DNA of 64,000 bases from Methanomassiliicoccales archaeon (GTDB lineage Archaea > Thermoplasmatota > Thermoplasmata > Methanomassiliicoccales > JAAEEP01), in the NCBI GenBank assembly GCA_013415695.1, contig JAAEEP010000001.1, positions 132,621 through 196,620 on the forward strand. The letters run 5' to 3'. Position numbers and translations under genes: made by a program. Below are positions 17,911-18,793 of the stretch, in pieces. The notes under the pieces are model-generated. The model worked only from the letters and a program-made list of their open reading frames with translations. It was not told where the DNA came from and made no database searches. The first letter of the stretch is position 1, and each line of letters begins with the position of its first letter.

Positions 17911-18675
17911 TCAATCTTTGGACAGGTCCTCTCCGCCCATGAAGGCTTGCTGGATGGTATTATAGATCTCCTCCATCCCTATGGACTCCTCAGAGGAAAC
18001 CGGTGTCATCTCCCGATACATACCGACATTCTCCATGGCCCGGAAGAACTCCAGGTTGATCAAGGATTGAGATGAGAAGTCCCTCTCCACCAGACTGCTG
18101 TTGAGTGCCTCAGGAGAATTCGACCATTCCAAGATCATTTCTATCTCAGTATCGGAGAGCAGATCGACCTTGGAGAGAACATTTATTATGGGGATGGAGA
18201 ACCGGAAATGGGTGAGGGCACATAACATCAGTGATGAGACGAAGCCATTAGGTGTTTTGCACAGATGGGGATCGGAAAGGAATACTAAGAAAGAATCCTG
18301 CCTGCCTAGTTGATCGATTATCAACTCGCTCGACTGGCGGAAGGTAAAGAGTTCCATCTGACCGGGCGTGTCCACTAGCACGTATTCTGTCTTGAATTCA
18401 TCTATGGTCGGGGCCCATTCCATTATATTGAGTGCCATTAGGTCAGAGGAGACTATCTGTGCTCCGTTGGGGCCCAATCCATATTCATCCATGACCTCCG
18501 AGAGCCGTATCCAATCCCTGATATCCACTTCCGCTGGATATGGAACAATGTCCGCTCCAGGGTCAAGGTTGACTGAGATGCAGTCCAATCCTTGAAGGTT
18601 CATCCACTCTCTGAAAGCATTCACGAGTGTGCTCTTTCCACTTCCCGCCGTTCCGATAAAATAGATAAATCGCAC
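17911..18675 (-). CDS. GPN-loop GTPase
   Basis: 254 residues from the GTG at 18675. The P-loop is GTAGSGKST near 7-15, the family loop Gly-Pro-Asn is at 68-70 in YGLGPNGA, DTPGQMEL is the switch II region and NVLSKVDLL is the base-specificity motif. GPN GTPases form homodimers; the eukaryotic relatives assemble RNA polymerase II. The GTG is preferred because GGAGGA at 18681-18686 lies 5 bases upstream. A frame from a TTG at 18729 would overlap the tRNA gene. It begins 21 bases after the tRNA-Lys 3' end and may be cotranscribed with it. Confidence 0.92.
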   Translation of the reverse strand: MRFIYFIGTAGSGKSTLVNAFREWMNLQGLDCISVNLDPGADIVPYPAEVDIRDWIRLSEVMDEYGLGPNGAQIVSSDLMALNIMEWAPTIDEFKTEYVLVDTPGQMELFTFRQSSELIIDQLGRQDSFLVFLSDPHLCKTPNGFVSSLMLCALTHFRFSIPIINVLSKVDLLSDTEIEMILEWSNSPEALNSSLVERDFSSQSLINLEFFRAMENVGMYREMTPVSSEESIGMEEIYNTIQQAFMGGEDLSKD

Positions 18676-18696: not shown

Positions 18697-18793
18697 CGGG
18701 CCCGGAGGGATGTTCGGGCTTGTTTCCAAACCTTTCGAACCCTCGACCCATCGGTTAAGAGCCGATTGCTCTGCCTAGCTGAGCTACGGGCCC
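18697..18793 (-). tRNA. tRNA-Lys (anticodon CTT) with a T-loop intron
   Basis: All arms pair: acceptor GGGCCCG/CGGGCCC with discriminator G at 18697, D stem GCTC/GAGC, anticodon stem ATCGG/CCGAT around loop CTCTTAA with CTT at 18757-18759, and T stem GAGGG/CCCTC. The T loop is interrupted after TTCGAA by 23 bases (18733 down to 18711). Removing them gives a 74-base tRNA with a standard TTCGAAT loop. The anticodon loop itself is not interrupted. No CCA is encoded. The upstream AT-rich stretch near 18800-18820 probably holds the promoter. Confidence 0.93.
18711..18733 (-). other. 23-nt tRNA intron in the T loop with a bulge-helix-bulge
   Basis: The T stem (outer helix) is followed on the 3' side by a 3-nt bulge CAT. 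A 4-bp helix TTCG/CGAA comes next, then a 3-nt bulge AAA on the 5' side, then a 6-bp helix GGTTTG/CAAGCC closed by a GAAA tetraloop. Cutting after the second base of each bulge, as archaeal tRNA endonuclease does, removes exactly these 23 bases and joins position 59 to 60. Confidence 0.85.

Follow-up and report, generated by a model that had tools for sequence, protein, structure and literature searches.

The tRNA-Lys(CUU) gene of this archaeon carries 23 extra bases in its T loop, between tRNA positions 59 and 60, and on the sequence evidence set out here we put the probability at about 95% that these bases are a bulge-helix-bulge (BHB) intron of a functional tRNA, which would be spliced by the endonuclease EndA and joined by RtcB. 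The motif and the position are already known from Thermoproteota (Marck and Grosjean 2003; Sugahara 2008; reviewed in PMC4090602); what is new is their presence in a broad lineage of Thermoplasmatota. The window, that is, the whole stretch of 64,000 nucleotides analysed, lies in an assembly of 2.0 Mb in 41 contigs that is 99.6% complete. The EndA of this genome is 56–64% identical to that of named Methanomassiliicoccales MAGs; judged by this identity and by its order-level relatives, which include M. luminyensis, the host belongs to Methanomassiliicoccales (phylum Thermoplasmatota) or stands close to that order. The first-pass annotation of this DNA had pointed out that introns at 59/60 are best documented in Thermoproteota, and that one in a Thermoplasmatota-like genome would be notable; the assignment of the host places this one in Thermoplasmatota. 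In the literature that we searched, tRNA introns in Methanomassiliicoccales were not reported; GtRNAdb, outside that search, may list some.

The precursor gene occupies 97 nt at positions 18697 to 18793 of the window, on the minus strand, as do all features of the gene given below. It begins GGGCCCG-TA-GCTC-AGCTAGGCA-GAGC-A-ATCGG-CTCTTAA-CCGAT-GGGTC-GAGGG and continues after GAGGG with TTCGAA^AGGTTTGGAAACAAGCCCGAACA^T-CCCTC-CGGGCCC-G, where ^ marks the intron borders. The acceptor, D, anticodon and T stems are all intact, and the anticodon CTT (18757–18759) lies in an uninterrupted CTCTTAA loop; direct reading of the sequence confirmed both the 23 extra bases and the intronless anticodon loop described in the first-pass annotation, coordinates and arithmetic included. 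The T loop is 30 bases long; the usual length is 7. The 5′ exon (18734–18793, 60 nt) comprises mature positions 1–59 in tRNA numbering and ends in ...GAGGG-TTCGAA, and its sequence is the same or nearly the same in intronless orthologues. The 23-nt intron, AGGTTTGGAAACAAGCCCGAACA, at 18711–18733 is defined by the sequence, by the MFE fold and by the intronless orthologues, and the 3′ exon (18697–18710) holds T60, the 3′ strands of the T and acceptor stems and G73. Without the insert the 97 nt become a mature form of 74 nt, which includes G73; CCA is not encoded.

The neighbours of the gene encode a GPN-loop GTPase and a CBS-domain protein. The GTPase gene (PF03029, Pfam E value 7.5e-61) lies on the same strand at 17911–18675, with a GTG start 21 nt past the tRNA. 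This gene start, MRNIYFIGTAGSGKS/T, is also found after the tRNA in relatives of family f2, where the same-strand order of tRNA-Lys(CUU) and GPN-loop GTPase is kept; the two may share a transcript.

The T arm folds as GAGGG / TTCG / AAA / GGTTTG-GAAA-CAAGCC / CGAA / CAT / CCCTC, a strict BHB with the geometry of a 3-nt bulge, a 4-bp helix, a 3-nt bulge and a 6-bp stem. This is the MFE structure of the T arm (−16.2 kcal/mol, z = −3.2, with 1 of 200 shuffles equally good), and the same BHB appears in the MFE fold of the full gene (z = −3.3); it coincides element by element with the motif listed from the sequence at first reading. The 5′ bulge AAA (18733–18735) and the 3′ bulge CAT (18710–18712) would each be cut after the second base, at 18734/18733 and 18711/18710, respectively. 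Between them, the central helix pairs TTCG (18736–18739), which is T54–57 of the T loop, with CGAA inside the intron (18713–18716); the first strand is drawn from the MFE structure and from relatives, and the pairs of the second are kept in relatives. The inner 6-bp stem GGTTTG/CAAGCC with its GAAA tetraloop (18717–18732) is given by the MFE structure and by covariation in relatives. Removal of the insert in silico yields the T loop TTCGAAT, and ARAGORN then calls tRNA-Lys(ctt).

Before that removal, ARAGORN recognised no tRNA in the window, and Rfam RF00005 gave the unspliced gene 26.1 bits, below the gathering score of 29, with false acceptor pairing. A gene that standard finders score below threshold could be a pseudogene, dead or in decay, whose T loop has received a hairpin, AAG being read by another tRNA; in principle, tRNA-Lys(UUU) might do so by wobble. 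We regard this as very improbable. The cloverleaf stems are perfect, family f2 conserves both gene and insert in each of its six genomes, and compensating changes maintain the base pairs of the insert. AAG is also the dominant lysine codon in the 15 long ORFs of the window (335 AAG vs 105 AAA), and the other lysine tRNA has the same type of T-loop insert plus an insert in the D loop, so that no lysine tRNA would be left if such genes were pseudogenes. The first-pass annotation had named a second, intact tRNA-Lys(CTT) as the finding that would speak against a functional intron-bearing gene; a BLAST search of the assembly with the gene returned only the gene itself and tRNA-Lys(TTT).

We compared the intron-bearing gene with its relatives at the level of the order and the phylum, because the family of the host consists of this genome alone. 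An order-level BLAST with the tRNA-Lys(CUU) gene covered 147 genomes, of which 30 were inspected. The intron was present in the window genome, in all six f2 genomes and in two f4 genomes (G013 and G014), and absent from the remaining inspected f4 genomes and from the inspected genomes of f5 and f6. Since G012, which lacks it, and G013, which has it, belong to one genus, the Lys(CUU) intron has been lost or gained recently and precisely. Some 20 intronless orthologues have the sequence TTCGAATCCCTC, and their T loop, TTCGAATCCC, is exactly the predicted splice product. Thus, the earlier proposal that cuts after the second base of each bulge restore a normal 74-base tRNA agrees with natural intronless genes as well as with the ARAGORN call of the spliced form. 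In the nine insert-bearing Lys(CTT) orthologues (families f1, f2 and f4), the BHB is kept while the insert varies in sequence and in length (22–31 nt).

These comparisons also bear on the idea that the insert is retained and that the tRNA works with an enlarged T loop and an extra hairpin. The T stem and the extra hairpin do fold stably together. However, the insert ranges from 20 to 33 nt across the distinct T arms of relatives and is precisely missing from orthologues with a TTCGAAT loop, and its 3+4+3 geometry is that of an EndA substrate, which a retained loop would not need. The conserved 7-nt T loop is needed for the elbow of the tRNA, and a retained insert would abolish that loop. We therefore consider retention to be just as improbable as a pseudogene.

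The base pairs of the predicted intron motif are maintained by compensating changes. In a first set of homologues, 98.1% of BHB cells were paired and 6 pairs had changed on both sides, values reached by none of 500 shuffles. Among 71 distinct T arms, 97.0% of cells were paired and 186 cells showed double changes vs 47 in shuffled alignments (0 of 1,000 reached it). The counts of both sets are inflated by the relatedness of the sequences and do not represent independent events. The number of pair types alone was not distinctive in these 71 T arms, as shuffling matched it in 161 of 1,000 trials. All four pairs of the central helix form in 71 of 71; the 5′ bulge is AAA in 65 and AAT in 6, and the third base of the 3′ bulge is T in every one. 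Of 64 genes from relatives, ARAGORN recognised 2 as they stand, against all 64 after removal of the T-loop insert. Finders without a BHB step would undercount tRNAs in these archaea, and completeness estimates that use such counts would be too low.

At least four tRNAs of the host genome have introns at 59/60, namely Lys(CUU), Lys(UUU), Arg(UCU) and Arg(CCG), all at a TTCGAA^...^T-type site. The tRNA-Lys(UUU) gene (G000:C5:94470 onward; L052:1501-1636) has a 59/60 intron with the central helix TTCG/CGGA and a second intron in the D loop (20/21), whose removal restores GCTCAGCTAGGTAGAGC; it thus has two non-canonical introns and nothing at 37/38. Both lysine tRNA genes that were found carry a T-loop intron, and a cell that decodes lysine must therefore remove T-loop introns. 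tRNA-Arg(UCU) (G000:C11, L049) combines a 37/38 insert with the 59/60 intron, and tRNA-Arg(CCG) (G000:C8:74942 downward, L222) combines an anticodon-loop insert with it. In the latter, the central helix is TTCA/TGAA, with A-T instead of G-C as its fourth pair, which compensates a base change at position 57.

Since T arms of tRNAs are common integration sites, the insert could also be the trace or attachment site of a mobile element with no tie to splicing. We judge this the least probable of the alternatives. Neither an integrase nor a duplicated tRNA end adjoins the gene, the insert measures only 23 nt, and four different tRNAs of the genome, like those of many relatives, have an insert at the identical 59/60 site.

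Further inserts accompany the 59/60 introns in this genome. D-loop inserts also occur in Thr(CGU), Val(UAC) and Leu(CAA) (L023, L047 and L048), that of Val(UAC) having uncertain borders and no obvious strict BHB, and about a dozen tRNAs have anticodon-loop inserts. tRNA-Trp(CCA) (L050, G000:C11) has an anticodon-loop intron of ∼99 nt, probably the common archaeal one that contains a C/D-box RNA. No gene for tRNA-Ala(UGC), Arg(GCG) or Cys(GCA) was located in the 99.6%-complete genome; these tRNAs may carry further unusual introns or be split.

The first-pass annotation had suggested looking for the same intron in related genomes, and it proved to be found across the order and elsewhere in the class, not isolated to this genome. 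A covariance model that describes the T arm together with the BHB, built from 11 sequences, matched 84 of the 147 genomes and 25 of the 30 genera of the order. Among the 70 matches of the order that were read out, 59/60 introns lay in tRNA-Arg(UCU) (in all families), Lys(CUU) and Arg(CCG), and in tRNA-Lys(UUU) of families f1, f2, f4 and f6. In a phylum-wide sample outside the order, matches included Arg(UCU) in G480, Lys(CUU) in G431 and Ser(UGA) in G455; the f23 matches had low scores and short spans and were left out of the 59/60 count. G402 and G474, also outside the order, have tRNA-Lys(UUU) with a T-loop match and further inserts. These two genes (L162 and L170; from another order of the same class) apparently have three inserts each, in the D, anticodon and T loops.

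The type of endonuclease, which the first-pass annotation had asked for, turned out to be that of a single fused gene. The host genome has one EndA gene with PF01974 twice in one open frame of 373 aa, and nine relatives likewise have one EndA gene with two domains; the two-gene (αβ)2 EndA was found in none of these ten genomes. The N-terminal domain is degenerate and the C-terminal domain is catalytic, with Y289, H297 and K327 invariant in all nine aligned proteins. With one gene, tandem domains and the triad in the C-terminal domain only, the predicted protein fits the α′2 (fused homodimeric) type. Its structure was predicted as a monomer model, and its nearest solved full-length relative is M. 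kandleri 5x89 (phmmer E value 4e-39; Foldseek E value 8e-29, TM 0.85/0.88). A CSL loop with a lysine like A. pernix K44 is absent; the aligned EndA stretch is GYFGKSLGQSLQLSLIE, without the DVEKPRGADFEGP insertion. An RtcB gene is present in the host genome.

This enzyme is not the one expected beside such introns. According to reviews, the single-gene EndA of euryarchaea serves introns at the canonical position (37/38) only (PMC4090602, PMC6379350); Yoshihisa 2014 lists 59/60 among known positions and gives Euryarchaeota with α4 or α2 enzymes one intron per gene, at the canonical site (PMC4090602), and Hirata 2019 calls α′2 enzymes narrow (PMC6379350). Non-canonical introns were reported in three thermophilic euryarchaeal methanogens (Chan 2011, PMC3218864). 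Because the T-loop introns are strict BHBs, even a narrow EndA could cut them; a position-related limit on EndA is nevertheless possible and would count against our explanation. The D-loop intron at 20/21 of tRNA-Lys(UUU), whose 3′ side is a 2×3 internal loop in the predicted fold, looks like a more demanding substrate. Provided that splicing occurs as predicted, the lineage is an exception to the rule that ties single-gene EndA to 37/38 introns.

The non-canonical introns of Thermoproteota resemble those described here in the 59/60 site, the BHB motif, the cut rule and the frequent occurrence of two introns per tRNA. In contrast, the enzyme there is the heterotetrameric (αβ)2 EndA (Crenarchaeota, Nanoarchaeota), whereas here it is a single fused EndA without an A. 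pernix-type CSL loop, in an order related to gut and wetland methanogens. Canonical euryarchaeal introns share the strict BHB and the single-gene EndA, and inserts of the 37/38 type occur in the same genome too; they differ in being described as limited to one per gene at 37/38 (PMC4090602), whereas here the site is in the T loop and several tRNAs have two introns. The EndA of M. kandleri is (αβ)2 with constrained broad specificity (PDB 5x89; Table 1 of PMC6379350), but it consists of two separate subunits, 5x89 being an artificial fusion, while the present protein is a natural two-domain single chain. The permuted tRNAs of Thermofilum pendens and Cyanidioschyzon merolae are joined at 59/60 (PMC3218864), the same T-loop site for EndA, although here the intron is a simple cis intron and the gene order is unpermuted.

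We infer the following course of cleavage, ligation and processing in the cell. In the precursor, the T stem would form as the outer helix of the BHB, and the T-loop bases TTCG would be held in the central helix by the CGAA of the intron. The fused single-gene EndA would cut both 3-nt bulges after their second base, an RtcB-type ligase would join A59 to T60 to give the standard TTCGAAT loop, and the elbow between D loop and T loop would form only after ligation. The earlier suggestion that splicing must precede folding of the T arm holds for the 7-nt loop and the elbow, but not for the T stem, which is already paired as the outer helix. Because one strand of the central helix comes from the T-loop consensus TTCGA itself, an intron that ends in CGAA and a 3-nt bulge fits any tRNA with that loop, and site 59/60 may be an easy target for the spread of introns. 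The Lys(CUU) intron is one of a set of 59/60 introns distributed over Methanomassiliicoccales and further Thermoplasmatota of this class, which individual tRNAs would have gained or lost.

We give even odds to the wider claim that a class of Thermoplasmatota, including the Methanomassiliicoccales of the human gut, needs T- and D-loop splicing for its lysine and arginine tRNAs by a single-gene fused EndA, with some of the motifs relaxed. If it is true, the rule linking non-canonical or multiple introns to (αβ)2 or ε2 endonucleases fails, and the fused EndA owes a broader range of substrates to something other than a CSL or ASL loop. The 59/60 and D-loop introns extend across a methanogen order and neighbouring orders beside a single-gene EndA with which reviews expect 37/38 introns only, and the proposed co-evolution of intron position and EndA type can be tested in a lineage with a cultured member.

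The introns also offer an answer to a published puzzle. The 2014 genome paper did not detect tRNA-Lys in M. luminyensis, a cultured methanogen from the human gut, and suggested that it lay in the missing ∼17 kb (PMC4153887). We identified G014 as M. luminyensis by its match to the published layout of pyl genes, not by name; a comparison of its PylRS with the chains of the PDB returned no identical one. Of its two pylS genes, one lies on contig 23 and encodes 275 aa, and the other, on contig 4, encodes 308 aa when a TTG start is taken, otherwise 271; pylS of M. luminyensis was described on contigs 4 and 23 with 275 aa and 271 or possibly 308 aa (PMC3941956). The size of G014, ∼2.6 Mb, and its 59.5% G+C over 11 kb also agree. 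In G014, contig 26 bears tRNA-Lys(CUU) and contig 20 bears tRNA-Lys(UUU); each has a 59/60 intron, and the latter a D-loop intron as well. Very likely, then, the tRNA-Lys genes of M. luminyensis are in the assembly and hidden by their introns, rather than in missing sequence. The RtcB of the same genome (G014:C12:107459-110110, L234) has ∼430 extra residues in one 947-aa frame, which suggests an intein.
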